DNA from: Rhodococcoides fascians NBRC 12155 = LMG 3623
GTDB taxonomy: Bacteria > Actinomycetota > Actinomycetes > Mycobacteriales > Mycobacteriaceae
NCBI RefSeq assembly: GCF_001894785.1
Contig: NZ_BCWW01000001.1
Location: forward strand, 186,001-250,000
Length of the DNA: 64,000 nucleotides
Direction of reading: 5' to 3'
The notes beneath the pieces are model-generated. The model searched no databases, was not told where the DNA came from, and saw only the letters and a list, made by a program, of their open reading frames with translations. Shown one piece after another: positions 23,093 to 50,889 of the stretch; position 1 is the stretch's first letter, and each line of letters starts with the position of its first letter. A program made the position numbers and the translations under genes.

Positions 23093-23151
23093 CGTGGTGT
23101 ATCTTGCCGTATCGGACCGCTAGGTTTCGTCGGACAACACGGGGGCACCGC

Positions 23152-24648
23152 ATGCATGGCCGCACGACGTCGCTCGGCTGCATCATCGCGGTTGCCGCAG
23201 GTACAGCCGTTCTTGCCGCACCCCCCGCGTACGCGGCGCCGCCACCGCCGGTGAATTCCTGTGGAGAAACCGGATTCGACCCCAAGGACTACCAACCAGA
23301 GCCCATCGGGGCCGGCAATCCGCCGCAGCTGCCGCCGTTGCCGGATCGTGTGGTGATCCCCGTGCCGTATCCGTCGATCGAACTCGTGCCGGTGCCCGAC
23401 CCGCCGCCGAACAACACCCGTGTCCAGGCGGAACCGTCGACCGACCCGTGCGCGGACCCCTGCCCCGACCTCACCGACGCCACGGAGTCGCCCACCACCG
23501 GCTCTGCAGACCATCTGCCGTTCCCTCGCATCGAGATCGACCCGCAACCCGAGACCATTCCCATCCCGATTCCCGGCCCCGGTGGAACTCCGGGAACCCC
23601 GCCGCCGGCACCCGCCGTGACCGCGGCGGAGTCCGGGCCGACGACGGTACCGCCGGTGGCACCGGCCGTCGGACACGTCGAGGTGGTCTCGCAGCTGACC
23701 GGACCGGGATCGGAGAACCGCACCGACAAGCGCTGGCAGGTCGACGGCACCGACCTCGGCATCATGTGGGAGAGCAAACCGGGCGAGGTCGCCGTCGTAT
23801 TCGGCGATTCCTTCGGCAGGGGTTGGGAATTCGGTGTGGTCGGCGGAGAGGATTGGCGGTCGAACGTACTGGGACTCAGCACCGACACCGACCTGTCCGA
23901 CGGTATGACCCTGGACTCGATGGTGCAGGATTCCCGCTGTCACGCAGCCGAATTACTACCCTCGCGCAAGATCAAGAATTGGGAGACCACCGTCATCCCC
24001 ACGTCCGGGTTCGCGATCGACGACCGGCAGTACATGTCGTACATGTCCATCCGGCGCTGGAGCACGATCCCCGGCATGTGGTGGACCAACTACGGCGGCA
24101 TCGCCTACTCGGACGACAACGGATCCACCTGGGTCAAGGACGAACATGCCAAGTGGGACAATGTCTTCGGGTTTTCCAAGTTCCAGGTTTCGACGATGGT
24201 CCCGGCGGGGGAGTACGTGTACATGTTCGGCACCGTCAACGGTCGCGCCGGACAGGTCGGCCTGGCACGCGTCCCGAAAGCGGACGTACTGAACAAGACC
24301 GCCTACCAGTACTGGGTGAACGGCACCTGGGCTCCCGTCGGATCGAACGAGGCCACCCCCATCGCCGACGGTATGGCCGGGGAACTGTCGGTCCATCACG
24401 ACGAGGCCCGAGACCTCTGGCAGATGACGTATCTGGATCCGTTACGCGGCGATATCGTTCTGCGCGAAGCGAATTCACCGCAGGGCCAGTGGACCGCCCC
24501 GAGCACCCTGATCGACACCGCCGAGTACCCCAAGACCTACGGCGGCTTCATTCATCCATGGTCCACGGCGAACGAGCTGTACTTCACCGTCTCGGAGTGG
24601 GACAGCTACAACGTCTATCTCGTCAAGGCCGAGCTTCGCTCGTCGTGA
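23152..24648 (+). CDS. Secreted DUF4185 protein, probable endo-D-arabinanase (GH183-like)
   Basis: A 498-residue exported protein. Residues 1-29 form a signal peptide ending AYA. Residues 30-185 are a Pro-rich low-complexity stretch with several Cys. Residues about 190-498 form the catalytic-type domain: GTDLGIMWESKPGEVAVVFGDSFG, GIAYSDDNGSTW, MVPAGEYVYMFGT and the end YLVKAEL fit DUF4185. DUF4185 proteins were recently shown in mycobacteria to be endo-D-arabinofuranases (family GH183) that cut arabinogalactan and lipoarabinomannan. Rhodococcus has such walls, so a wall-remodelling role is likely but inferred. The stop codon lies inside a dispersed repeat. Confidence 0.82.
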   Translation: MHGRTTSLGCIIAVAAGTAVLAAPPAYAAPPPPVNSCGETGFDPKDYQPEPIGAGNPPQLPPLPDRVVIPVPYPSIELVPVPDPPPNNTRVQAEPSTDPCADPCPDLTDATESPTTGSADHLPFPRIEIDPQPETIPIPIPGPGGTPGTPPPAPAVTAAESGPTTVPPVAPAVGHVEVVSQLTGPGSENRTDKRWQVDGTDLGIMWESKPGEVAVVFGDSFGRGWEFGVVGGEDWRSNVLGLSTDTDLSDGMTLDSMVQDSRCHAAELLPSRKIKNWETTVIPTSGFAIDDRQYMSYMSIRRWSTIPGMWWTNYGGIAYSDDNGSTWVKDEHAKWDNVFGFSKFQVSTMVPAGEYVYMFGTVNGRAGQVGLARVPKADVLNKTAYQYWVNGTWAPVGSNEATPIADGMAGELSVHHDEARDLWQMTYLDPLRGDIVLREANSPQGQWTAPSTLIDTAEYPKTYGGFIHPWSTANELYFTVSEWDSYNVYLVKAELRSS

Positions 24649-24690
24649 GTGGAAACTCGTAGTGGGCTACGAAGTTCCGCGCACGTGCGC
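24644..24690 (+). repeat. Dispersed hairpin-like repeat, copy 3
   Basis: It begins CGTGAGTGGAAACTCGTAG, passes through GGCTACGAAGTTCC and ends in the 16-bp palindrome CCGCGCACGTGCGCGG (24676-24691). The first TGA of the repeat is the stop codon of the DUF4185 gene. It lies between convergent genes. Confidence 0.78.
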
Positions 24691-24698
24691 GGGACGCG

Positions 24699-37798: not shown

Positions 37799-38479
37799 TC
37801 AGCGAGCTCCGACCGTCGACTTCTGTTCGATGTCGACCACCGAGATACTCGCCGCCACCAGCAATTGCTCGAGCGCCGATTCGACATCCTGCTTCCACCC
37901 GTGATCGCGATCCAATTCGAGGCGGAGTCTCGGGAACCTGTGATGCGGCGCCACCACCTCGAAGCCGACCTTCTGCAGAAAGTCGGCGTCGATCATGCAT
38001 GTCGCAGCCGAGCACGTCGCGTGTGCCGTCGCATTGGGAATTGCCGGCGACGCGTCGTCCGCATTGTGGCGAATGCCGAAGGCCTCCAAAGCACGAACAC
38101 CACGATTGACGAGATCGCCGACCACGGCCTGAATCAGGGTTGCCGAATGCAGATCCGCATCGGCCGGGGAATCGATACGAAGCTGGGTCAGTAGGACCGC
38201 GTCGGGACTGACGGGCGAAGTAGGGAAGGTCGACGCCCGAGGAACTGCGCGGGGCGGGCAGTACAGCGCACACCCGATCGTGTTGCCGTCCACGGACAAC
38301 AGCTGTCCGCACGATCCCCACTCGAGCATGATCGTCGACAACCACACCTCATTTTCGAATTCGAGGTCCACCGCCGCGCCGTCGGACGTGGGATCGAGGA
38401 CCCAGAAGCTACACCGCCGAGAATGTGCCGGCAGATGTTCGAACGAGCCGAGGGTCACTCCGGTCACCATCGCCGACAC
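37799..38479 (-). CDS. GNAT-like protein of the parB-cwlM interval (Rv3916c-type)
   Basis: A 226-residue protein with GNAT-like layout: VLLTQLRIDSPADADLHSATLIQAVVGDLVNRGVRALEAFGIR is the acetyl-CoA-site region (about residues 93-135). It is conserved at this place in Mycobacteriales. CSAATCMIDADFLQKVGFEVVAPHHRFPRLRLEL is a conserved C-terminal block. The acetyl-CoA Q/RxxGxG/A loop is not well formed, so enzymatic activity is uncertain. I took GTG at 38479 because GAGG is spaced correctly before it; the ATG at 38470 would be too far. It converges on cwlM and lies downstream of parB. Confidence 0.8.
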   Translation of the reverse strand: MSAMVTGVTLGSFEHLPAHSRRCSFWVLDPTSDGAAVDLEFENEVWLSTIMLEWGSCGQLLSVDGNTIGCALYCPPRAVPRASTFPTSPVSPDAVLLTQLRIDSPADADLHSATLIQAVVGDLVNRGVRALEAFGIRHNADDASPAIPNATAHATCSAATCMIDADFLQKVGFEVVAPHHRFPRLRLELDRDHGWKQDVESALEQLLVAASISVVDIEQKSTVGAR

Positions 38480-38664
38480 CGCGTACCTCAGCCTCCGTGC
38501 AGTCGTTCCACCGCTCGATTCTCGGTGGGGAGCCGATTCTCTCCTCGACCAGGATAGGCGACGGGGTCGCGCTACCTGGTGATCGGGGAAGATCCTCGAA
38601 ACCTAGTGCATCACAATAGTTTTCGATCCAACTTGCCGTTTTCGGGATCAATCGTCGTCGATAT

Positions 38665-38679
38665 ACGTCACAGTGACGT
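38665..38679. promoter_or_regulatory. ACGTCACAGTGACGT palindrome
   Basis: A 15-bp palindrome (central A) between the parB stop and the GNAT gene start. The 13-bp core recurs at 44031. It is probably a binding site of an unknown DNA-binding protein. Confidence 0.45.
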
Positions 38680-38714
38680 TACGCCCTGGTATGACTGGTC
38701 CTGAAAAAACGCGG

Positions 38715-39791
38715 CTACTTTTTCTTCTGGGCTTCCATCATCTCGACGATTCTCTGAAGGTCGTCGACCGACCCGAATTCGACGACGATCTTGCCCTTTC
38801 GCTTACCCAGACTCACTGTCACCCTCGTATCGAACGAATCCGAGAGGCGATCGGCCACATCCTGAAGGCCCGGCATCTGGATCGGCTTGCGCTTCGCCGC
38901 CGGTTCGGGGGACTTACCGTCCTCGCGATTGGCCAGAGTGACGGCTTCTTCCGTCGCTCGAACCGAGAGACCCTCGGCCACGATGCGCGCAGCCAACGAT
39001 TCCTGTGCATCCGATCCCGCGTCCAACGACAGCAGCGCGCGTGCATGTCCCGCCGACAGAACACCGGCTGCGACACGTCTCTGTACCGGAATCGGCAACT
39101 TCAGCAGACGGATCATGTTGGTCACGACGGGGCGTGACCGTCCGATCTTTGCCGCGAGCTCCTCGTGCGTGACATCGAATTCTTCGAGGAGCTGCTGATA
39201 TGCGGCCGCCTCTTCGAGAGGATTGAGCTGCACGCGATGGATGTTTTCGAGCAGTGCGTCGCGCAGCATTGCGTCGTCTGCGGTTTCCCGGACGATCGCG
39301 GGGATCTTCTCCAGGCCCGCTTCCTGGCTCGCGCGCCACCGCCGCTCGCCCATGACGAGTTGATACTTGGCATCTCCTGCAGCTGCAGAACCGGATACGA
39401 GGCGCACCACGATCGGCTGCATGAGACCGAATTCGCGAATCGAGTGCACCAGTTCGGCAAGGGATTCGTCGTCGAAGACGTGCCTCGGCTGCTTGGGATT
39501 CGCCTCGATTCGGTCCGGCGAGATCTCCCGATACACGGCACCGACGGGGGAGAGGTCGTCCCCGTTCAGCACCGGCGGCGTCGGAGTAGGTGCCGTTGCT
39601 GTCTCTGTGGTGTCGTCGGACGCCACTGCCCGCTTGGGCTTCGTCGACGTGTCCGGCTTGTCCTTGGCGTTGCGGTCGGCACCGATGATGACGTCGGCTG
39701 CTGCATTACCGAGGCGCGGTCCGGCATCGGGGCCCGTGGGGATGAGCGACGCGAGTCCGCGCCCCAGACCGCCCTTACGTGCTTGACTCAT
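38715..39791 (-). CDS. parB: Chromosome-partitioning protein ParB
   Basis: A 358-residue ParB. The N-terminal CTPase domain (about residues 75-170) has the family box [20 protein letters not shown], followed by [21 protein letters not shown] and the HTH region [21 protein letters not shown] that reads parS; the C-terminal segment dimerises. It loads at parS, spreads as a CTP-dependent sliding clamp and organises the origin region. ATG at 39791 is 3 bp after the parA stop on the minus strand, so the two genes form an operon. Seven candidate parS sites lie upstream. Confidence 0.97.
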
Positions 39792-39794
39792 GTC

Positions 39795-40796
39795 CTACTT
39801 CTTTCGTGCGTCGATGCCGGCCGAGCGAGCAGCGAGCTCTCGTCCGGCGTCCAGGTAACTCATTGCTCCACGCGAACCGGGGTCGTAATCCAACACCGTC
39901 ATGCCGTACCCGGGTGCTTCGGAGACCTTCACACTGCGCGGAATCACGGCACGGAGCACGGCATCACCGAAGTGCTTCCGCACTTCCTCGGCGACCTGAT
40001 CGGCCAGTTTGGTGCGGCCGTCGTACATCGTGAGGATGACGGTCGAGACGTGCAATTCAGGATTGAGATGGGACTGAACCAGCTCGATATTCCGAAGCAG
40101 CTGCCCCACACCCTCCAGTGCGTAGTACTCGCATTGAATGGGAATCAGCACCTCGGTGGCCGCCACAAGCGCGTTGACAGTCAGCAGACCGAGTGACGGT
40201 GGGCAGTCGATGAGGATGAAATCGGCGTCGAGTCCGGCCAACTCCTCGACCGACAACGCCGTCTTGAGGCGTCCTTCCCGGGCCACCATCGAGACCAATT
40301 CGATCTCCGCGCCAGCAAGGTCGATCGTTGCCGGGATGCAGAACAACCGCTCACTGTGCGGACTCTGCTGGATCGCGTCTTTGGCCTTCACTTCGCCGAT
40401 GAGCACCTCGTAGCTCGACGGCACACCGGAATGATGTTCGACGCCCAGTGCCGTGCTGGCGTTGCCCTGAGGGTCCAGATCCACCACCAAGACCGTCAGG
40501 CCCTGGAGCGCGAGTGCGGCTGCGAGGTTGACCGCCGTCGTGGTCTTGCCGACGCCACCCTTCTGATTCGCAATCGTCAGCATGCGGCGCTTCGCCGGCT
40601 TGGGCAACGTCACCGATCCCGGGTGAAGGACCTGACTGGCCCGGTGCGCGGCGGCCCCGATCGGGGTGTCGTCGGTCGAAATCGAGTTGGTGTACTCGAA
40701 GCCACTCGTCACCCCCGCCTTGTTGGCGGCTGCGTTCGACGACTTCTTCTTGGACTCTGTTTCACGTGAAACAGCGGGATCCGACCCACCCGACAT
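39795..40796 (-). CDS. parA: Chromosome-partitioning ATPase ParA
   Basis: A 333-residue deviant Walker ATPase. KGGVGKTTTAVNLAAALA (about residues 77-94) holds the signature Lys and P-loop, VVDLDPQGNAS follows, and DFILIDCPPSLGLLTVNAL is the Walker B part. About 70 N-terminal residues precede the ATPase. It binds nucleoid DNA and segregates ParB-parS complexes. AAGGAG lies before the ATG at 40796. Codons 8-13 contain a perfect parS palindrome, so the protein there reads VSRET. Confidence 0.96.
   Translation of the reverse strand: MSGGSDPAVSRETESKKKSSNAAANKAGVTSGFEYTNSISTDDTPIGAAAHRASQVLHPGSVTLPKPAKRRMLTIANQKGGVGKTTTAVNLAAALALQGLTVLVVDLDPQGNASTALGVEHHSGVPSSYEVLIGEVKAKDAIQQSPHSERLFCIPATIDLAGAEIELVSMVAREGRLKTALSVEELAGLDADFILIDCPPSLGLLTVNALVAATEVLIPIQCEYYALEGVGQLLRNIELVQSHLNPELHVSTVILTMYDGRTKLADQVAEEVRKHFGDAVLRAVIPRSVKVSEAPGYGMTVLDYDPGSRGAMSYLDAGRELAARSAGIDARKK
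40758..40773. promoter_or_regulatory. parS: parS site 1 (perfect)
   Basis: TGTTTCACGTGAAACA, the 16-bp consensus ParB-binding palindrome, lies within the parA coding sequence near its 5' end. Confidence 0.95.
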
Positions 40797-40872
40797 ATGT
40801 GCTCCTTAGTGCGGAACTGAATGTGTTCTACGTTCGATACAAACGGCGCGGGGCGATTCCCGCAATCGATCA

Positions 40873-41553
40873 TCAGTGGCGACTGAGCCGCCGCGGCTCA
40901 CGGACTGCCCTGACGACGATGGTGGGTGTCGGGAGAAGACCGACACCGCACTCCACGACCTCCAGCTTGCCAGCACCCATACGGGTGAGGGAAGTCCTGT
41001 CGCGTTCGATCTCCTCACTCGCGCTGGAACCCTTCAGCGCGAGCATCCGGCCGCGTTCGTGAACGAGGGGGAGAGACCATTTGGCGAGCTTCTCCAGCGG
41101 GGCCACAGCCCTCGACGTGACGACATCCGCGCCGCCGGCTTCCTTCTTCACGCCGGGCTGCTCGGCCCGCCCACGTACAACCAACACGTTCAGATCGTGC
41201 TCGTCGATGAACTCGGCCAGATAGACGGTTCTCCGAAGAAGAGGCTCGACGAGCGTCACCCGAAGATCCGGTCGAGCGATGGCAAGAGGGATACCGGGCA
41301 GACCGGCACCGCTTCCGATGTCGACCACAGTTTCGCCCTCGTCGATGAGCTCGCCGATCGCAGCGCAATTGAGGATATGCCGCTCCCAGAGTCGCGGAAC
41401 TTCGCGTGGACCGATCAGCCCCCGTTCGACTCCGGCGGTAGCCAAGAACTCGTGATATCTCCGAGCGAGATCCAGTCGATCTCCGAACATCTGCTCGGCG
41501 ACGGCCATCAACTCGGTGCTATCCGACGCTTCTTGTTCCACGTGAAACATCAT
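40873..41553 (-). CDS. rsmG: 16S rRNA (guanine527-N7)-methyltransferase RsmG
   Basis: A 226-residue SAM-dependent methyltransferase (GidB) that modifies G527 of 16S rRNA; loss gives low-level streptomycin resistance in other bacteria. The key SAM motif is [22 protein letters not shown] near residue 78, with [15 protein letters not shown] near 148 as a second family block. Two ATGs at 41553 and 41550 precede FHVEQ, encoded by a parS palindrome. The frame runs 32 codons further without support. It is the first gene of the leftward rsmG-parA-parB group, 76 bp before parA. Confidence 0.93.
41534..41549. promoter_or_regulatory. parS: parS-like site 2 (one mismatch)
   Basis: TGTTCCACGTGAAACA differs from consensus at position 5. 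It lies directly behind the rsmG start codon and codes for FHVEQ. Confidence 0.85.
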
Positions 41554-41728
41554 CCCGTGCTCGGGCACGGATCGCCAAACGACACCTCTGTAAGTTGCCG
41601 AGATCGCGAGGTTCCGGAAGTTGGAGTCCCGATTCGATGGGTCGAGCACACCCGGACCGCCGTCAGCGCGCCCGCTCCGATTTCAGAGTTCATTCTTCCC
41701 GACACTTCGCCGTTGTTGAGTACGTCGG

Positions 41729-41744
41729 TGTTTCACGTGAAACC
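41729..41744. promoter_or_regulatory. parS: parS-like site 3 (one mismatch)
   Basis: TGTTTCACGTGAAACC differs from consensus only in the last base. Confidence 0.88.
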
Positions 41745-42266
41745 GTGCCAGGGTCCGACGGCTGGGGACGCGACAGTTGCGTGTACTTCGAGCGACCGAC
41801 CCACGGTCCTCAGCGCCCTCCAACGAACTCGCGCACCAAGTGATATCGACTAGGACTTCCCGTCCCGGCGATGGTGGACGAGATGCCCGTACGGCCAGAC
41901 CCATCCGGTACAGGAGCCGTTCCCGTCGCCCATCCGATACAGACACGTCAGGCTGGGGACTCCAAGTACATCGCCGCCCTACGCCCACTGCCGTCGTGGG
42001 TCCTCGGCACGGGCGCGCCTTTGACCCTTGCTCCATAGGCACTCGGCGAGCTCGCCGAGGGAAGCACCCCACCGGCACACTGACCCGACCGCCATCACGG
42101 GTCCAACAGAATCCGGCGATCCGATGAGGCCACCCCAAGGACGGCGTTGAGGACTGCGTTCACTGAAGTGCATCCGTCCATCCCACCCAGGGTTTGAGCA
42201 ACCACTTCGTCGAGACGAGTCGTAACTCTGATAGCCGTGTCCGTGATGTCGGGCGCGCCCCCCCGC

Positions 42267-42282
42267 CGTTTTACGTGAAACC
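42267..42282. promoter_or_regulatory. Degenerate parS-like site 4
   Basis: CGTTTTACGTGAAACC has three mismatches to the consensus but keeps ACGTGAAAC. Binding is uncertain. Confidence 0.5.
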
Positions 42283-42734
42283 GGGCAGCTCGCTCTGGTC
42301 GGACAGCGTCGGCAGATTCGTCCCCGACTGACACCGCAATCGATGTTGCCTCGACCGAGCCCACTAGGCGTCACGTTCATTCCCGGGCGCCGCCTGGCCC
42401 CACAGCACCCAGCTCGAAACCGACCCCACACCCCCTCGTTGGGACCGGATGTTGCGAGCACCCGCCGTGGCGTCGTCGGCGATCGGCGTGCCCACGCTTT
42501 CGGATACAACCGGACAGCTTCGGGCATCGTTTGACCTGTCGGAAAATGTCGCGCGGCTCGGACTGCTCCTCGCGCCCGCCTACCGCCGGCTGTCGCGAGC
42601 ACCAAGCGACCGGGTGCAAGATCGACGCCCGGTTCGGACTGCTCCTCGGGCCGGGTCCGCCGATGTTAAGAGCATCGGCCGGAGCGTATTCAAAACCGTC
42701 GCACGCTTCGACGGCAGGATCGTGCCCTAGATCG

Positions 42735-42750
42735 TGTTTCACGTGAAACA
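42735..42750. promoter_or_regulatory. parS: parS site 5 (perfect)
   Basis: TGTTTCACGTGAAACA within an 18-bp palindrome (extra flanking G and C). Confidence 0.95.
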
Positions 42751-43069
42751 CGTTCCGACTCTCTGCGGGTTAGGTTGCCGTCGACGTGGCCGTAGTCTCG
42801 ATGATCGTCAGTCCGGATCGGCACCAAGTTCCACAACGGGTCTTGCCGACGATCAGTCTGGACGTCACATTCGCAGGCGACCGTCGGGTGCCTCCGATCG
42901 GTTGGATGACTTCGCCTGTAGACGCAGTTCGGAGACGACAGCTGCACGGCGATCGAGAGCGGCGACGTCAATCCTTCCTCGAGCAATCGGGGTCGGAGGC
43001 ATGGAGCGAGCCGACATCAGTCCGAGCCAGCCCAATTTCGAAAGGTGACGGCCGGCCAAGAGACCCGAC

Positions 43070-43085
43070 TGTTTCACGTGAAACA
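43070..43085. promoter_or_regulatory. parS: parS site 6 (perfect)
   Basis: TGTTTCACGTGAAACA, 335 bp from site 5, in the same ORF-poor region. Confidence 0.95.
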
Positions 43086-43969
43086 CGCACACGCGTCTGC
43101 ACCCCTCGCGGGCAACCTAGGTAGGTGGTTGTCCTACCCGACCGCCGTGTAGATGACGCGACGCCGGGGCGCACTCACGATCGGTGATCCTGAGGTCGAA
43201 GACATTCGAGATCCAATGCTGGGGTAGTGAGCCCAGCTGAGCGTGACGCGACCGACGATGACTACGCACTACCGGCCGCCACACGTCACGCCATGGTGAA
43301 CCAGTCATGCTCATTTGACCTAACCTGCGACATCACCGCGCCGGACACTCCGCCGTCGCGTTCCAGAACGAGGTCATCACAGAATTCACCCAGACGGATC
43401 CTGCTACGCCTCGTGCCTCTGGAAGTTCGCGCGGCAAGCACAGCACAGAGACAACCCATCGTCCGTCGATCGGCTCACGTCTTCATCCGATAGCGTCTCG
43501 GCAAGTGAGGAGCACACCTTCTCCCGGCCCGACAGCAGAGTTCGAGGTCATGAACTAGCCCGGTGTGCCCGCCCGCTACACCGAGGCCCGCCTGTCATAT
43601 CGTCGCGCAAGGGGCCACGGTGACGATGTGCCCGCTGCGGGAGCGCATCGCGGCAAGCGGACCGACGGTCGTGTAGTCCGCTGTCCCACCGTGACTGATC
43701 CTTCCTCGGACTTGGACTGACCAACCACGTGCGTTGATGCCGAAAGAACTATGCAGGCGCATCCGAGCGTGTGCACGATGGGTGGTCTCGACTACTCTTA
43801 ATCGGCTGGGGTCCAAGAGTTGGTTGACACCCTCGACCTCGCCGAGCCGCGAGGCATTCCTCGATCATCGGCTGTCGACCAAACGGGATCCGGTCGCATG
43901 ATCGGCGTGCGTATGACCGCCACAAGGGCGAGCCACCTCGACCTATCAATCGACATCTGCCTCAGCGTT

Positions 43970-43985
43970 CGTTTCACGTGAAACA
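43970..43985. promoter_or_regulatory. parS: parS-like site 7 (one mismatch)
   Basis: CGTTTCACGTGAAACA differs only in the first base. It is the site nearest to oriC, about 5.1 kb away. Confidence 0.88.
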
Positions 43986-44030
43986 TCGTCCGTCACGTGG
44001 AATCACGGGCAGAGCCGCCCTGCAACCACC

Positions 44031-44043
44031 CGTCACAGTGACG
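44031..44043. promoter_or_regulatory. CGTCACAGTGACG palindrome, second copy
   Basis: Identical to the core of the palindrome at 38665-38679. The two copies flank the parB-parA-rsmG-parS segment. Confidence 0.45.
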
Positions 44044-44158
44044 AAAGCGTCCGATACCGATGGGCCCATTATTTTTCGCTCTCGGAGCCCATCCGATCGC
44101 TAACGCCCAAGGCAAATTACATCCATGCAATTCAAGCCCGAGCTTTCGACACAAACGA

Positions 44159-44188
44159 CGATGGCCCCCACCGAAGTGGGGGCCATCG
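44159..44188 (-). terminator. Terminator of the rpmH-jag operon
   Basis: A perfect 13-bp GC-rich stem (CGATGGCCCCCAC / GTGGGGGCCATCG) with a CGAA loop lies 17 bp past the jag stop. On the minus strand TCGTTTGTGT follows. Confidence 0.85.
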
Positions 44189-44204
44189 CTTATCGAAAGT
44201 GTCG

Positions 44205-44888
44205 CTATGCCTTGACGACGACGACCCGTCGAGCGGGTTCGACGCCGGTGCTTTCGCTCGCAACGCCGTCGATCTTGGCAACTGCGTCGTGCACGATCTT
44301 GCGCTCGAACGGAGTCATCGGAGTCAGTTCCTCACGCTCTCCGGATTCGAGTACTCGACGTGCTGCTTCGGCACCCAGGTTCCCGAGCTCGGTGCGTCGC
44401 TTGGCACGCCACCCGGCGACGTCGAGCATCAGCTTGCTGCGCTCGCCCGTCGACTGCTGCACAGCCAGACGGGTCAGTTCCTGCAGAGCGTCGAGTACCT
44501 CGCCCTTGCGACCGACGAGCTTGGCGAGATCGTCTCCGCCGTCGATGCTGACGATCGCGCGATCACCCTCCACGTCGAGGTCGATGTCTCCGTCGAAGTC
44601 GAGCACGTCCAGAAGCTGCTCGAGGTAGTCGCCGGCGATTTCGCCTTCCTCGACCAAGTAATCCTCGTCGTCTTCGTCGTCTTCACCATCATCCGAATCC
44701 GCAGCGTCATCGACACTCGTGGGGACCGACGGAGTCTTCTGTACGGCGTCGTCGACAGTAGCTTCGTCGTCGGACTCCGTCTCGACGGCACTCACCTGAT
44801 CGGTCTCGACCATCACGTCACCCACTCCATCCCCAGCTGCTGCGTTCCGTACTTCGTCGTTCTGTGCTTCTTCGGCGTGCGCTGCCAT
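44205..44888 (-). CDS. jag: Jag/KhpB RNA-binding protein
   Basis: A 227-residue protein with a very acidic N-terminal part (residues 1-75, with a run of Asp/Glu), a KH domain with LVGRKGEVLDALQELTRLAV near 120-140 and an R3H domain (RxxxH in ERKIVHDAV near 203). It is an RNA-binding partner in the YidC region of Gram-positive bacteria, linked to control of cell division and envelope synthesis in firmicutes. The Jag-N domain of firmicutes is absent. ATG at 44888 has the SD GAGAAGGA. It follows yidC by 25 bp and is last in the operon. Confidence 0.93.
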   Translation of the reverse strand: MAAHAEEAQNDEVRNAAAGDGVGDVMVETDQVSAVETESDDEATVDDAVQKTPSVPTSVDDAADSDDGEDDEDDEDYLVEEGEIAGDYLEQLLDVLDFDGDIDLDVEGDRAIVSIDGGDDLAKLVGRKGEVLDALQELTRLAVQQSTGERSKLMLDVAGWRAKRRTELGNLGAEAARRVLESGEREELTPMTPFERKIVHDAVAKIDGVASESTGVEPARRVVVVKA

Positions 44889-44913
44889 GTTCGTCCTTCT
44901 CTCGACGTGTCGG

Positions 44914-46005
44914 TCAGCGCCGCTTGCGCTTGGTCGACTTGTTCCTGTTCGCCTGCGGTCGCGGTTTGCTCGGGGTGGCAGACCCTGACGAAGAGTCCGT
45001 CCCGGTACTTGCAGTATCGGTAGTGGATTCGTCATCCGCCGGTGCCATCTTCGAGAGCTTCGGCCGAGCACCGGGCTTGGGCTTTGTCGTCGAGACCGGC
45101 TTCACTCCTGGCTTGGGCGCATTCTCCGAGCGCTTCTCGACGGCGGCCGCTACCTTGGCGGCCTCTTCCTTGTCGATCTTGCCGAACACCAGGTGCTGCT
45201 GCGCGTAGGTCCAGGTGTTGTTGCTGACCCAGTAGAGCAGGATGGCGACGGGCAACAGTGCACCGAACACCAGAACACCCAGCGGGAACACGTAGAGGGC
45301 GAGCTTGTTCATGATGGCGGACTGCGGGTTTGCGGCCGCGGCGGCGCTCTGCCGGGCCACGGACGCACGCGAGTTCAGGTGCGTCATGACGGCCGCAATG
45401 ATCATCAGGGGAATGGACACAGCCGCGATGACCCACGTGGACGGAATGGTCGCGTCGGGACCGACGGCGAAGGCGTTGAGCTGATCCTGCGGCATGGTGA
45501 TCCAGGCCGAGATGGGAGCGCCGAACAGGCGGGCATCCAGGAACGACTGAACATCGGCAACGCTGAACGCATAATTCGAGAGTTCGCGGTTCTCTTCCGG
45601 ACTCAGGCCGAGCTGCCCGACACCGGTACCGGTGCGGTTGAACGAGCGAAGCACGTGGAACAGGCCGATGAACACCGGTGCCTGTGCCAGCACGGGGAGG
45701 CAGCCCATCAACGGGTTGAAGCCGTGTTCTTTTTGCAGCTTCTGCATCTCGACGGCCATTTTTTGCTTGTCTTTGCCGTACTTCTTCTGCAGCGCTTTGA
45801 TCTGCGGCTGCAGTTCCTGCATCTGCCGCGTCGTGCGGACCTGCTTGACGAAGGGCTTGTACAGGATCAGCCGGAGGGTGAAGACGAGGAAGACGACGGA
45901 CAATGCCCAGGCGAAGCCATTGCTGGGATCCTGGAACACAAAGCCGAACACCTTGTGCCACACCCAGAGAATCCAGGCAACCGGGTAGTAAATGAAGTCG
46001 AGCAC
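44914..46005 (-). CDS. yidC: Membrane protein insertase YidC
   Basis: A 363-residue Oxa1/YidC insertase that helps membrane proteins fold and insert. Helices are seen near residues 1-30, 38-58, 100-125, 165-200 and 225-260. [43 protein letters not shown] (described here by its core [16 protein letters not shown] near 95) is the cytoplasmic coiled-coil plus conserved loop. The tail after 290 is Lys/Arg-rich ([11 protein letters not shown]), which can contact ribosomes. ATG at 46005 follows yidD by 4 bp. Confidence 0.96.
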
Positions 46006-46009
46006 GGCT

Positions 46010-46339
46010 CTATGTACTCCTCTGTTCTTCCACTCGCAGGAGATCGTGGTGTTCTTCGGTTTCGGTCAGCTCGGTGACGGTTGCGCGCCACCTACCGGGT
46101 TCGGGCACCGGGTCCCAGCCTCCAGAGTGCCAGGGAGCACATTTGAGGAGGCGGACGACTGCCAGGAGCGAGCCCTTCGGCATCCCGTGCACCTGGAGCG
46201 CCTCGATGGCGTATTCACTGCAGGTGGGGGAGAAGCGACAGGTAGGGGGCCGCATCGGGGACACATAGGTCCGGTACAACACGATGCAGTAGACGAGAGT
46301 TCGAGCAGGAATGGAACGAAGGTTGCCCATGAATGTCAT
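46010..46339 (-). CDS. yidD: Membrane protein insertion efficiency factor YidD
   Basis: A 109-residue YidD/YtjA protein with the family core [31 protein letters not shown] (Cys-containing, about residues 22-52) and [16 protein letters not shown]-like text ([16 protein letters not shown]). It assists YidC-dependent insertion. Its ATG overlaps the rnpA stop by 4 bp (ATGA), which indicates coupled translation. The C-terminal 25 residues are variable. Confidence 0.94.
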
Positions 46340-46716
46340 GACGGCGGACCCTTCGGAGCTTCGAGTAGACCGAGCTTCTTCAAACCTGAACGCAGTTGAA
46401 CGTGTAGATCTGCCGAGGATGCATGCGCAGCACCCGGAAGTGCTCGAATGACCACGTCGGTGTTCACCGCGAGCCCGTCGATCACCTCAGCACAGATATG
46501 CCGAAGCCGGCGCGCAACTCGATGACGAGTTACGGCCGGCCCGACTGCCTTGCTGACGATCAATCCGAAACGTGGACCATGAACGGTGGATGCGATGTCC
46601 TGCTCGTGACGCGCAACTGCGTGTACGACCAGGTCCGATCTACCCATTCGGCGTCCTCGACGCATCACCACGGTGAAGTCACGTGCGCGATGCAGCCGAT
46701 TCGGCTCAGGAAGCAT
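46336..46716 (-). CDS. rnpA: Ribonuclease P protein component
   Basis: A 126-residue RnpA, the basic protein subunit of RNase P for tRNA 5' maturation. It shows RLHRARDFTVVMRRGRR near the N-terminus and the RNR-type motif AVGPAVTRHRVARRLRHI near 57-74. ATG at 46716 (MLPEPNRLHRARDF) has GGAG six bases upstream, so the longer frame starting with TTG at 46728 is not needed. It lies 30 bp after rpmH and overlaps yidD. Confidence 0.95.
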   Translation of the reverse strand: MLPEPNRLHRARDFTVVMRRGRRMGRSDLVVHAVARHEQDIASTVHGPRFGLIVSKAVGPAVTRHRVARRLRHICAEVIDGLAVNTDVVIRALPGAAHASSADLHVQLRSGLKKLGLLEAPKGPPS

Positions 46717-46746
46717 CCCGAGCTCCAAGCTTCGGACGAACGGTTA

Positions 46747-46890
46747 TCAGGCTGTGAGTTCTTTGCGGCCCTTGCCGCGACGTGCGGAAACGATTGCACG
46801 ACCCGCACGGGTACGCATACGAAGACGGAAGCCATGAACGCGCGCGCGGCGGCGATTGTTCGGCTGGAACGTCCGCTTGCCCTTGGCCAC
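46747..46890 (-). CDS. rpmH: 50S ribosomal protein L34
   Basis: A 47-residue protein, [20 protein letters not shown] onward, ending GKGRKELTA, the exact L34 pattern. The GTG at 46890 has AGGAG eight bases upstream. A longer open frame to 47193 exists but is only upstream sequence. It is the first gene of the leftward rpmH-rnpA-yidD-yidC-jag operon, divergent from dnaA. Confidence 0.97.
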
Positions 46891-47512
46891 GGTCAACACT
46901 CCTCGAGATTCGAAGACGCCGATCTGTCGGCGCCTGCTGTAAAGGTTCTCAGCGAGTTCGGATGAACTCGCTAGCCTCCCGAGCGAGAAATCCGAGTGAA
47001 GACAGACTGTGAGCAGCCAGCAAGCATCGGCCACCTCGCTATTGGGTGACTGTTCGAGAGTACTGATCGAGTCACCGGTGGTCAAACTCGCTCGACATCG
47101 ACCGATCCGTCGATTCATACACAGGCCACGGACGACGAGACCTCGGACGGGCCGAAGAGTCGACAATATCTGTCGTTCCGCGGCGCCGCGCAACTGGTCG
47201 TTGCTGCGATCGAACGACTGACAATGGCTATCGCCGCAGGTCAGACTGTCGTATACGTACTACCACGCCACTCGGTGACGGTTGGGCTCACATCGGTGTC
47301 GTTTATCCACACCTGTGGATAATTGTGTGGAAACACAGTTCAGGTGGCATATTCGTACCTTGCGGGGTCCACCGAAGGACCCTTGTCTCGGCCGCGGAGG
47401 CGCACGATCGACGACGCTATCCGACGACGCGGTTGCGCGGGTTCGAAACGCCGCACCGAATCGGTTGTCGGAGTCCGGCGAGACCTACAAGCTCGACGAC
47501 GGAGGGATCGAC
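46891..47512. other. rpmH-dnaA intergenic region
   Basis: This 622-bp divergent region holds the rpmH and dnaA promoters but no gene. On the rpmH side two stem-loops occur: CGCCGA/TCGGCG (46917-46932) and AGCGAGTTC/GAACTCGCT (46951-46972), probably in the rpmH leader. On the dnaA side lies a DnaA-box pair at 47303-47322. I see no clear -35/-10 pair by eye. Confidence 0.6.
47303..47322. promoter_or_regulatory. Inverted pair of DnaA boxes upstream of dnaA
   Basis: TTATCCACA (47303-47311, plus) and TGTGGATAA (47314-47322, minus) face each other with 2 bp between, followed by the weaker TTGTGTGGAAA. They suit DnaA autoregulation and an origin role. Confidence 0.85.
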
Positions 47513-49045
47513 GTGAACGACGATCCGGATGCGCTTGCGCGCATCTGGCCCGAGGTAGTCGCGGAGCTGACGTCCGACCGACACAGTGGGTCGCCGCTGA
47601 CCAAGGGCCAGAAGGCCTGGCTCGCGCTGGTCAAACCGCTCACGTTGACTCAGGGCTTCGCTCTGCTCGCCGTCCCGTCGACCTTCGCTCAGGAAGCGAT
47701 CGAACGTGACCTGCGCGAACCCATCCTGGGAGCCCTGGGGCGTCATCTGGGACAGGGTGTCGAAGGTCTCGGCGTTCGGATCTCCGCCCCCGAGGACGAG
47801 AAGCTCGAAACCGAGCGCTCGACGTATCCCGATGCCGTCAGTTCCCCGACGTACCGGCGCCGCGTCCTGACCAGCAGAGACGACGAGCCGTCGGACTCCG
47901 AGACCGCCGATTACGAGGAAGTGGACGACGAGCGGGAAGCCCTCGCCAGCGTCCAGAACTCGTGGCCGACGTACTTCACCAAACCACCGGAGTCGACGCC
48001 ACCGTCGTCGGGTGCCAACAGCCTCAACTCGAAGTACACCTTCGACACGTTCGTGATCGGCGCCTCCAACCGGTTCGCGCACGCCGCCGCGGTCGCCATC
48101 GCCGAAGCACCCGCCCGGGCGTACAACCCGTTGTTCGTGTGGGGGGCATCGGGCCTGGGCAAGACGCACCTGCTGCACGCGGCCGGTCACTACGCGCAGC
48201 GCCTGTTCCCGGGCATGCGCGTGAAGTACGTCTCCACCGAAGAATTCACCAACGACTTCATCAACAGTCTCCGTGACGACCGCAAGGTGGCGTTCAAGCG
48301 CCGCTACCGCGAGACCGACGTGCTGCTGGTCGACGACATTCAGTTCATCGAGGGCAAGGAAGGTATCCAGGAAGAGTTCTTCCACACCTTCAACACGCTG
48401 CACAACGCCAACAAGCAAATCGTCGTCTCGTCCGACCGACCACCCAAACAGTTGGCGACCCTCGAGGAGCGGCTGCGTACCCGCTTCGAGTGGGGCCTGA
48501 TCACCGACGTCCAGCCACCGGAGCTCGAGACGCGGATCGCCATTCTGAGCAAGAAGGCTCGGATGGATCGACTCGACGTGCCGCACGACGTCCTGGAGCT
48601 GATCGCCAGCCGCATCGAGCGCAACATCCGCGAGCTCGAAGGCGCCCTCATTCGCGTGACGGCATTCGCCTCGTTGAACGGACAGGCCCTCGACCTCACC
48701 CTCGCCGAGGTCGTCCTACGTGACCTGATTCCCGATTCGTCCAGCTTGGAAATCAACGCGGCCACGATCATGGCCGTCACCGCGGAGTACTTCGACACCT
48801 CCATCGAGGACCTGTGCGGGCCGGGTAAGGCCCGAGCGTTGGCCATGGCCAGGCAGATAGCGATGTATCTCTGCAGAGAGCTCACCGACCTGTCACTACC
48901 GAAGATCGGTCAGACGTTCGGCCGAGATCACACGACGGTGATGTACGCGGACAAGAAGATTCGCAAGGAAATGACCGAGCGTCGCAAGGTCTACGACCAG
49001 GTCCAGGAGTTGACGGCGCGTATCAAGCAGCGCTCGAAGCGATAG
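47513..49045 (+). CDS. dnaA: Chromosomal replication initiator DnaA
   Basis: A 510-residue DnaA. Domain I spans about residues 1-90, an acidic linker follows to about 165, and the AAA+ domain III lies at about 175-380 (Walker [16 protein letters not shown], Walker [16 protein letters not shown]). Domain IV ends the protein with the DNA-binding signature [18 protein letters not shown]. It binds DnaA boxes and opens oriC. GTG at 47513 has GGAGGG six bases upstream and begins [15 protein letters not shown], like mycobacterial MTDDPGSG; the open frame starts 77 codons earlier in the promoter region. Confidence 0.98.
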
Positions 49046-49066
49046 CTCCACAGTCCTTCGGCAACG

Positions 49067-49113
49067 ACGGCGACGGCGCCGATTCCCATCGCGGGGGTCG
49101 GTGCCGTCGCCGT
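49067..49113 (+). terminator. dnaA terminator
   Basis: An 11-bp perfect stem (ACGGCGACGGC / GCCGTCGCCGT), extended by four further pairs with one mismatch, ends in GTTTTCG. It lies 21 bp after the dnaA stop. Confidence 0.75.
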
Positions 49114-49263
49114 TTTCGTCGGTGATCGGTGCCGCCTCGGTTCGACTCGGGCGTCGATCGAACACGATCTCCAGTCGATTCCGGATCGAATCTGGGTCGA
49201 TTCCGCGCCGATTCTGGGCCGAATCGGATGACATTTCGGAGCCGACGACCATTGATTCACACC

Positions 49264-49284
49264 TGTGGATAACCATGTGGACAA
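49264..49284 (-). promoter_or_regulatory. DnaA boxes in oriC
   Basis: TGTGGATAA and TGTGGACAA, both oriented on the minus strand and 3 bp apart, match the TT(A/G)TCCACA box. Confidence 0.85.
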
Positions 49285-49440
49285 CCGTCGACTTCTGGGG
49301 ATGGAATGTGGGCGCCTGTGCACCGATGCGATTGGTCCACAGGCAGCCGTCCGTCAACCGCAGATTGGTCCCGAGTTCATCCCCACGACACCACGCCTAG
49401 CCACCAGCGTCGCGAGGGCTCCATGCACAGATTGCACAGG

Positions 49441-49489
49441 ACCTATTAATACTTCTGTTTTCTCCTTGAAAGAACTTCTTTGAAAACAG
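49441..49489. other. AT-rich candidate DNA unwinding element
   Basis: The only strongly AT-rich stretch in oriC. It includes TATTAATA-like sequence, nested inverted repeats CTGTTTTC/GAAAACAG (49455-49462, 49482-49489) and AAAGAAcTTCTTT. It lies 160 bp downstream of the DnaA boxes. Confidence 0.55.
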
Positions 49490-49704
49490 GTGTTGGGGAA
49501 CGATCCGTTCACAGCCCCCTTCCGACGACCGCATCGGTGCCCTTCGCGGCCTCGCCCGAGCTTTCAACTTCGTCTCGAAGGGCATACGGTGTGCTTGCGC
49601 TGGATGTGCCAGACTCGTCGTTGCATCGGTTGGAGCCGCGACGATCGTGGTCGCACCGCTCGACTGTGCACACGAATGCCCCGAACGAGAGGAAATGCCG
49701 AGCG

Positions 49705-50889
49705 ATGGAGCTTGGAAGTTTGAAGTTTCGCGTTGCTCGTGAAGATTTTTCCGATTCCGTGGCGTGGGTGGCCCGCAGCCTGCCGTCCCGGCCGCCCGTT
49801 CCCGTTCTCGGTGGCGTTCTGCTTGCTGCCGACGAACAGGGTCTGACGGTCTCGGGCTTCGATTACGAGGTCTCCGCCCAGGTGAAGGTTTCGGCCGAAG
49901 TGGCCACCGCAGGACGAGTTCTGGTGTCGGGCAAGCTACTTGCCGATATCACCAAGTCGTTGCCGAACAAGCCCGTCGACGTCACCGTCGACGGGACTCG
50001 CGTTCTCGTCAACTGCGGAAGCGCAAAATTCTCGCTGCCGACGATGCCGGTCGAGGACTATCCTCAGCTACCCGAGTTGCCCAGCAACACCGGTTCGCTG
50101 GCCGGTGATGTCTTCTCCGAGGCAATTGCCCAGGTCGCCATTGCGGCGGGCAAGGACGACACGCTTCCCATGCTGACCGGTATCCGTGTCGAGATCGACG
50201 GCACCAACGTCGTGCTGGCTGCGACCGACCGATTCCGGTTGGCGGTTCGTGAGGTCGACTGGACTCCCGCCGGCGCCGACACCACCACTGCAGTGCTGAT
50301 TCCGGCGAAGACCCTGTCCGAGTCGGCCAAGACTCTCGGCGGCAACGCGGGTTCGCCCGTCGAGCTCGCTCTCGGTTCGGGTTCCTCCATCGGGAGCGAC
50401 GGTTTGCTCGGAATCGTCAGCGACGGGCGCCGCACGACCACGCGTCTGCTCGATGCGGAATTCCCGAAGTTCCGTCAGTTGCTCCCGGCAGAGCACACCG
50501 CCGTCGCAACACTCGAGATCGCGTCGCTGGTCGAGGCCATCAAGCGCGTGGCGTTGGTCGCCGAACGCGGTGCGCAGGTGCGCCTGGAATTCAACGCCGA
50601 AGGTGTGCTGCTCTCGGCAGGCGGCGACGATGCCGGCCGGGCCGAGGAAGCTCTGCCGGCCGACTTCCAGGGTGAGGCGCTCACCATTGCGTTCAACCCG
50701 GGGTACCTCATCGACGGCCTGTCCTCCTTGCACAGCGAAAAGGTCACGTTCGGTTTCACCACCCCGAGTCGGCCTGCAGTGCTGCGTCCGACGTCGGACG
50801 AGGAGCTGGTGCCCGACGATTCCGGCAAGTTCGCGGCGCCTCAGTCCCAATACACCTATCTGTTGATGCCGGTCAGGCTGCCGGGCTGA
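49705..50889 (+). CDS. dnaN: DNA polymerase III beta subunit (sliding clamp)
   Basis: A 394-residue clamp made of three similar domains. It begins [26 protein letters not shown] and contains [44 protein letters not shown] and [12 protein letters not shown], and ends [13 protein letters not shown], the conserved C-terminal MPMR-type motif. It encircles DNA and tethers polymerase III. ATG at 49705 follows GAGAGGAAA; the frame extends back to 49480 through oriC DNA without support. gnd follows after 104 bp. Confidence 0.97.

Follow-up and report, generated by a model that had tools for sequence, protein, structure and literature searches.

A probable ParB-loading array in the gene-free interval between rsmG and jag of Rhodococcoides fascians

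A cluster of ParB sites in an interval without genes

What is a long stretch without genes doing beside the partition genes of a bacterial chromosome, close to its replication origin? We addressed this question in Rhodococcoides fascians NBRC 12155 using a 64,000-nucleotide stretch of contig NZ_BCWW01000001.1 (positions 186,001 to 250,000), hereafter the window. On its minus strand yidC and jag are followed by rsmG, parA and parB, with dnaA close by. The jag gene (44205..44888) encodes an R3H domain (Pfam PF01424) and a KH domain that falls slightly below its cut-off, rsmG (GidB; 40873..41553) matches PF02527, parA (39795..40796) matches PF13614 (AAA_31), and parB (38715..39791) encodes ParB_N, HTH_ParB and ParB_C domains (PF02195, PF17762 and PF23552). 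The genome therefore supplies both proteins expected of a ParABS centromere, ParA and a ParB with N, HTH and C domains, from genes that adjoin the non-coding, parS-rich block running from the rsmG start to the jag stop (41554..44204).

A motif scan with GTTTCACGTGAAAC, which we take to be the parS consensus, found seven sites in the window, all within 3.2 kb (40759-43984), five exact and two with a single mismatch, in agreement with the count given by the first-pass annotation. Five of the seven lie in the jag-rsmG interval, at 41730..41743 (exact), 42268..42281 (one mismatch), 42736..42749 (exact), 43071..43084 (exact) and 43971..43984 (exact); the last of these, nearest jag, occupies the same alignment column in 13/13 of the nearest loci. 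Two more sites had been placed in the coding ends of parA and rsmG, and both are present, although the ends in question are the 5' ends: an exact site at 40759..40772 lies inside the start of parA, as does a site in 29/29 loci of the window's clade, and a one-mismatch site at 41535..41548 covers the first codons of rsmG (MFHVE). The latter site is kept in 13/13 loci of the window's sub-clade and in 4/16 of the sister sub-clade, where it has mostly been lost.

This density is far above chance, as base composition predicts 0.0002 sites with up to one mismatch in the block. When up to three mismatches were allowed, the window held 8 matches against a shuffle mean of 2.3, and 8 was reached in 0/100 shuffles. 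Across the whole 5.77-Mb genome (36 contigs) we found a single further parS with at most one mismatch, at C1:284528, and we count this concentration of all but one genomic site in favor of an array. Scanning with TTRTCCACA, presumably the DnaA box consensus, returned starts solely at 47303, 47314, 49264 and 49276, so that some 5-8 kb separate the block, with its several consensus palindromes, from the dnaA-dnaN gap, in line with the distance from oriC proposed earlier. A DnaA-box origin within the block itself was rejected, as no DnaA box lies inside it.

The proposal that about 2.6 kb here lacks a credible gene was likewise upheld. The longest open reading frame of the block (208 aa) is of the length seen in shuffled sequence (mean 211), and no codon score exceeds 3.1, which is below the shuffle 95th percentile of 6.3. 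When all 23 ORFs of at least 60 aa touching 41554-44204 (rsmG left out) were compared with Pfam, none came near a curated cut-off, the best sub-threshold E-values being 0.033, 0.073 and 0.16; on the codon model and this Pfam scan together we rejected a hidden gene. A known structured RNA was rejected as well, since Rfam gave no match at gathering score across 38000-50000. In 464 kb scanned for coding signal, consisting of 20 stretches of 20 kb from the genome plus the window, the block, at 2549 nt on this count, was the longest stretch without such signal. The second-longest, of 1606 nt, also lies in the window, at 23093-24698.

Because the codon model can miss genes, scoring only 2.9 for a methyltransferase ORF in the block of locus L016 that Pfam recognizes, we extended the Pfam scan to other clade blocks shorter than 3 kb (22 blocks, of which L023 has no ORF of the length required). 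None of the 76 ORFs of at least 120 aa from the remaining 21 blocks matched a family at E 0.01. For the long blocks of L015, L017 and L019 the check consisted of the codon model plus tblastn searches with four proteins. The window's block is not featureless for all this, as it has two palindromes (P1 and P2) and, directly before rsmG, a leader conserved over about 45 nt (41554..41596, minus strand), delimited by alignment of the nearest loci.

Conservation of sites and drift of the DNA between them

We surveyed 117 loci (80 named, 36 same-genus stretches and the window), 95 of them distinct. Three of the 95 had no jag match (L011, L025 and L082), leaving 92 for measurement. The sequences of L011 and L025 break off within the gap; both loci are probably members of the window's clade and were left uncounted. 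The jag-rsmG gap is shorter than 300 nt in 54/92 loci, so the expectation that related actinobacteria keep the two genes close holds for these loci and fails for the R. opacus/jostii group, Tomitella biformata and Gordonia rhizosphera. In the window's clade every one of the 29 loci that could be measured has a gap of 0.87-5.7 kb with 3-8 parS; the seven R. opacus/jostii-type loci have one of 1.8-3.1 kb with 2-4 parS, Gordonia rhizosphera one of 549 nt with two parS, and Tomitella biformata one of 1.7 kb without parS. Four assemblies that consist of a single contig (G009, G014, G027 and G028) contain the block, which is thus no assembly artefact.

In 37 of the 54 short-gap loci a parS-bearing gap sits on the other side of rsmG, between rsmG and parA, with a length of about 0.26-5.4 kb that is approximate because the ParA start was extrapolated; we count this, too, in favor of an array. 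These loci comprise 26 Nocardia, 8 Rhodococcus (of the R. coprophilus/gordoniae/yananensis kind), two Antrihabitans and one Tsukamurella, and their gaps were assessed for genes by the codon model only. Seven genomes of the window's genus code have both gaps short, with 1-2 sites in parA plus the rsmG site, which indicates that the block is not needed by all relatives. They fall outside the window's clade on an RsmG+ParA tree of 86 rows, built by a quick method and showing several long branches, from which L044, L073 and L083 were left out for early stops in ParA read from the extrapolated start and others for want of parA or jag. On this tree the state of the jag-side gap changes at least three times, two of the changes being forced by starred branches.

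Among the 13 nearest loci, whose RsmG proteins are 91-95% identical, most inter-site DNA cannot be aligned, and what is conserved is the parS sites, the terminator after jag, the two palindromes and the roughly 45 nt before rsmG. Across ten close pairs of loci, parS columns were 91.4% identical (n=756) as opposed to 69.8% for other columns (n=24,481), figures to be read with the knowledge that the pairs share some loci and that the shuffled baseline, 41%, comes from one pair. The sites of this candidate centromere are thus conserved above the surrounding DNA in the pooled data, as are those of nine of the ten pairs taken singly; L005/L087 has no excess at parS columns (0.53 vs 0.59). In three further close pairs a site has been lost or gained. 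The anticipated drift of sequence between retained sites is therefore borne out.

How fast the filler drifts was gauged from blastn alignments and 4-fold degenerate columns, which were kept when identities from global alignment proved equal to the shuffled baseline and were discarded. The blastn alignments put the divergence of the filler about level with that of 4-fold sites, or above it: L018/L020 are 93.9% identical at 4-fold sites and 83.5% in the block, and L009/L093 are 79.4% and 80.4% identical, respectively. We dismissed faster-than-neutral mutation of the filler as an added assumption that is not needed, given a 4-fold identity of 0.43 between the window and L013.

Conserved spacing, the other half of the earlier prediction, did not hold. 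Distances between shared neighboring sites vary even in close pairs (592 vs 505, 1300 vs 246), and across the clade neighboring sites stand from 24 nt to 3.6 kb apart. The total number of sites per locus is steady: the window's sub-clade (13 loci) averages 6.0 (sd 0.7), with 4.0 in the gap itself, and the sister sub-clade (16 loci) 7.6 (sd 0.7), with 6.25 in the gap. Block length has a coefficient of variation of 0.16 and 0.52 in the two sub-clades and correlates with site number at a Spearman coefficient of 0.46, not corrected for kinship. Steady number combined with free spacing argues that the sites, and not the emptiness of the interval, are under selection.

A requirement for emptiness likewise finds no support, given the relatives that carry genes or ORFs in the interval, namely L016, L098, L101 and four of the seven R. 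opacus-type loci, so the description of a gene-free block fits the window while a few relatives depart from it. Pfam identifies the methyltransferase ORF in L016 (L099 is the same genome) and a HopA1-family ORF with a luciferase-like ORF in L098; the four R. opacus-type blocks hold a SnoaL-like gene (by Pfam for L034 and by tblastn for all four), and the L106 block has a 113-aa ORF with coding signal and no Pfam match. In the L101 gap we observed by eye an IS3-like pair of transposase ORFs, yet five parS are kept there.

These unrelated insertions in a few blocks, together with the highly variable block length, are what one would expect if the interval were simply a neutral, insertion-tolerant gap whose extra sites are redundant and which has no role beyond holding one or two of them. 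Passages of a Corynebacterium glutamicum study point the same way, reporting that one parS suffices for growth and overall chromosome folding (PMC7083940), which we also count against the array reading, since a need for the 5-9 sites seen here does not follow from it. Redundant sites should nevertheless decay, yet the parS columns have stayed at 91% identity beside 70% filler and the total site number has remained steady. We consequently regard a purely neutral gap as a minority possibility, one that would nonetheless surprise us less than any other alternative to an array.

The jag-proximal head and the rsmG leader

A strong terminator on the jag side had been viewed as a guard that keeps the block free of transcription. 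The intrinsic terminator at 44158..44189 (minus strand) is better described as jag's own, since a strictly defined hairpin (8 or more Watson-Crick pairs) is present after jag in 27/54 short-gap and 27/38 long-gap loci, compared with 3/92 in shuffles, and further post-jag hairpins with imperfect stems were seen by eye. As block-less relatives share it, the terminator is no speciality of the block.

Between this terminator and the first parS lies P1 (CGTCACAGTGACG, 44031..44043), placed 58-63 nt from that site (start to start) in 13/13 of the nearest loci, among which CGTCACTGTGACG is invariant. The core GTCACNGTGAY occurs inside the block of 29/29 clade loci and, in 11 of the clade's other 16 loci, follows a parS by 31-34 nt; R. 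opacus-type blocks hold one-mismatch forms, and in the 37 loci with the gap across rsmG, P1 is present in the rsmG-parA gap in 18 and absent there in 19. A second copy in the window (38666..38678) begins 37 nt past the parB stop. This second position recurs widely. From 141 genomes we examined 90, made up of the 30 best parB matches and 60 picked from the other 111 to cover genera; GTCACNGTGAC falls within 60 nt past the parB stop in 27/30 of the former and 3-90 nt past it in 31/60 of the latter (35 when one mismatch is allowed), with exact copies in 16 of the 26 genera of those 60, giving 58/90 for the post-parB core overall. The control, mononucleotide shuffles, matched in 1/3000. Within the R. 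fascians genome CGTCACNGTGACG occurs at seven sites, both partition-locus copies included, vs one for the reversed control.

Five loci of one genus code (L162, L163, L165, L166 and L169) have P1 copies, several of them perfect palindromes, beside an HNH-type gene when inspected by eye, and three of the five have P1 near a MerR-like gene as well; these copies perhaps make up a small regulon. The consensus sequences that we presume for BldD, MtrA and CRP do not appear to fit P1. A paper on TetR motifs (PMC4482099) contains no GTCAC or GTGAC string, and a literature search with P1 strings returned no title on bacterial gene regulation, and no report of P1, among the matches listed. That P1 borders the array and recurs after parB across many genera points to a regulatory or boundary element of the partition locus. 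A bolder proposal, which we consider improbable, is that P1 constitutes a second, hitherto unrecognized cis-element of the family's chromosomal partition locus, a putative protein site that would confine or position ParB clamps in a KorA-like manner. The analogy is with the clamp and clamp-lock of KorB and KorA on RK2, as described in PMC11790492, by which a palindrome beside loading sites could hold a clamp-stopping protein.

P2 (GAATNNCATNNATGNNATT, 44114..44133, minus strand) is an operator-like, GAATNNCATNNATGNNATTC-like palindrome conserved in the nearest loci. It occurs once in this genome at zero mismatches, and its one-mismatch forms are commoner than those of a control pattern. Near the rsmG start of short-gap loci we found P2 relatives with up to two mismatches in L046, L047, L081 and L120, and P2-like palindromes by eye in other Gordonia, in Antrihabitans, in Aldersonia and in the seven short-gap genomes described above. 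In Gordonia rhizosphera (L079) two parS already separate P2 from rsmG, and together these arrangements suggest growth of the array in the interval from P2 to rsmG.

The P2-like palindromes near rsmG in several short-gap relatives, identified partly by eye, imply that the block may have expanded inside an old rsmG leader. They would also fit a block that is itself a long leader or regulatory RNA of an rsmG-parA-parB operon, with P2 as operator and parS as sites of ParB autoregulation, and in Mycobacterium bovis BCG a parS overlaps the -10 element of a gidB promoter according to passages of PMC2346475. We think such a leader unlikely, because the inter-site sequence is unalignable even among the nearest species, Rfam finds no match, the conserved rsmG leader extends over about 45 nt only, and a scan of 40800-44400 with a simple consensus, which overlooks promoters of other kinds, gave no promoter-like site. 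More doubtful still is the idea that parS was recruited into what is left of a decayed gene or mobile element. In its favor are the gene or transposase-like ORFs that some relatives carry in this gap and a sub-threshold similarity (E 0.073) to a DDE transposase over 36 residues. Against it stand the empty Pfam scan of the 76 clade ORFs, the low share of indels that are multiples of three (34 among the 188 counted in five close pairs), and the failure of tblastn to find the three genes searched for, those of the L016 and L098 blocks, in any other species' block.

A probable ParB-loading array and its known counterparts

Collectively, these findings lead us to conclude that the block is quite probably the chromosome's main ParB-loading array, in effect its centromere, set in near-neutral filler. 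The dedicated centromere proposed in the first-pass annotation accordingly survives in part: a parS array is found in 29/29 loci with sites conserved relative to filler, and fixed spacing, a guard terminator and obligatory emptiness find no support. The block would belong to the chromosomal ParABS system encoded beside it. By analogy with ParABS systems already studied, ParB-CTP dimers would load at parS, close into clamps and slide onto the flanking DNA, and the resulting complex would be moved by ParA and recruit SMC; we also infer ParB binding, a role in segregation and the absence of strong transcription in the block. What selection maintains may be how many parS lie near oriC, together with a short head on the jag side (P1 with the first parS, and probably P2), the inter-site DNA being presumably near-neutral filler that may lengthen, shorten or take up insertions. 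With one lineage keeping its site number while the filler drifts, and related lineages holding a site-rich gap across rsmG, the locus is a natural experiment on the parS number that a chromosome requires and on the importance of the intervening DNA.

Searches of the literature on parS with Rhodococcus, Nocardia, intergenic arrays and the wider actinobacteria returned no title on the block among the matches listed. Its closest likeness is the C. glutamicum cluster, which in passages of PMC7083940 comprises ten parS in 35 kb, 73 kb from oriC, with 9/10 intergenic and 10/10 ChIP-positive. Both clusters are oriC-proximal with nearly all sites intergenic, and ParB and SMC loading has been demonstrated for that of C. 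glutamicum; here, by contrast, seven sites are packed into 3.2 kb at a distance of about 5-8 kb from oriC, with five in one gene-free block. In M. bovis BCG and M. smegmatis, passages of PMC2346475 report two parS each, those of BCG at gidB and in parA, positions that match the rsmG and parA sites described here. Unlike the mycobacteria, for which only those two sites are reported there, R. fascians has five more sites and an expanded jag-rsmG gap. The parts are thus known, and what is new is a compact, gene-free parS block that is conserved mainly in its sites and has a counterpart across rsmG in related lineages.
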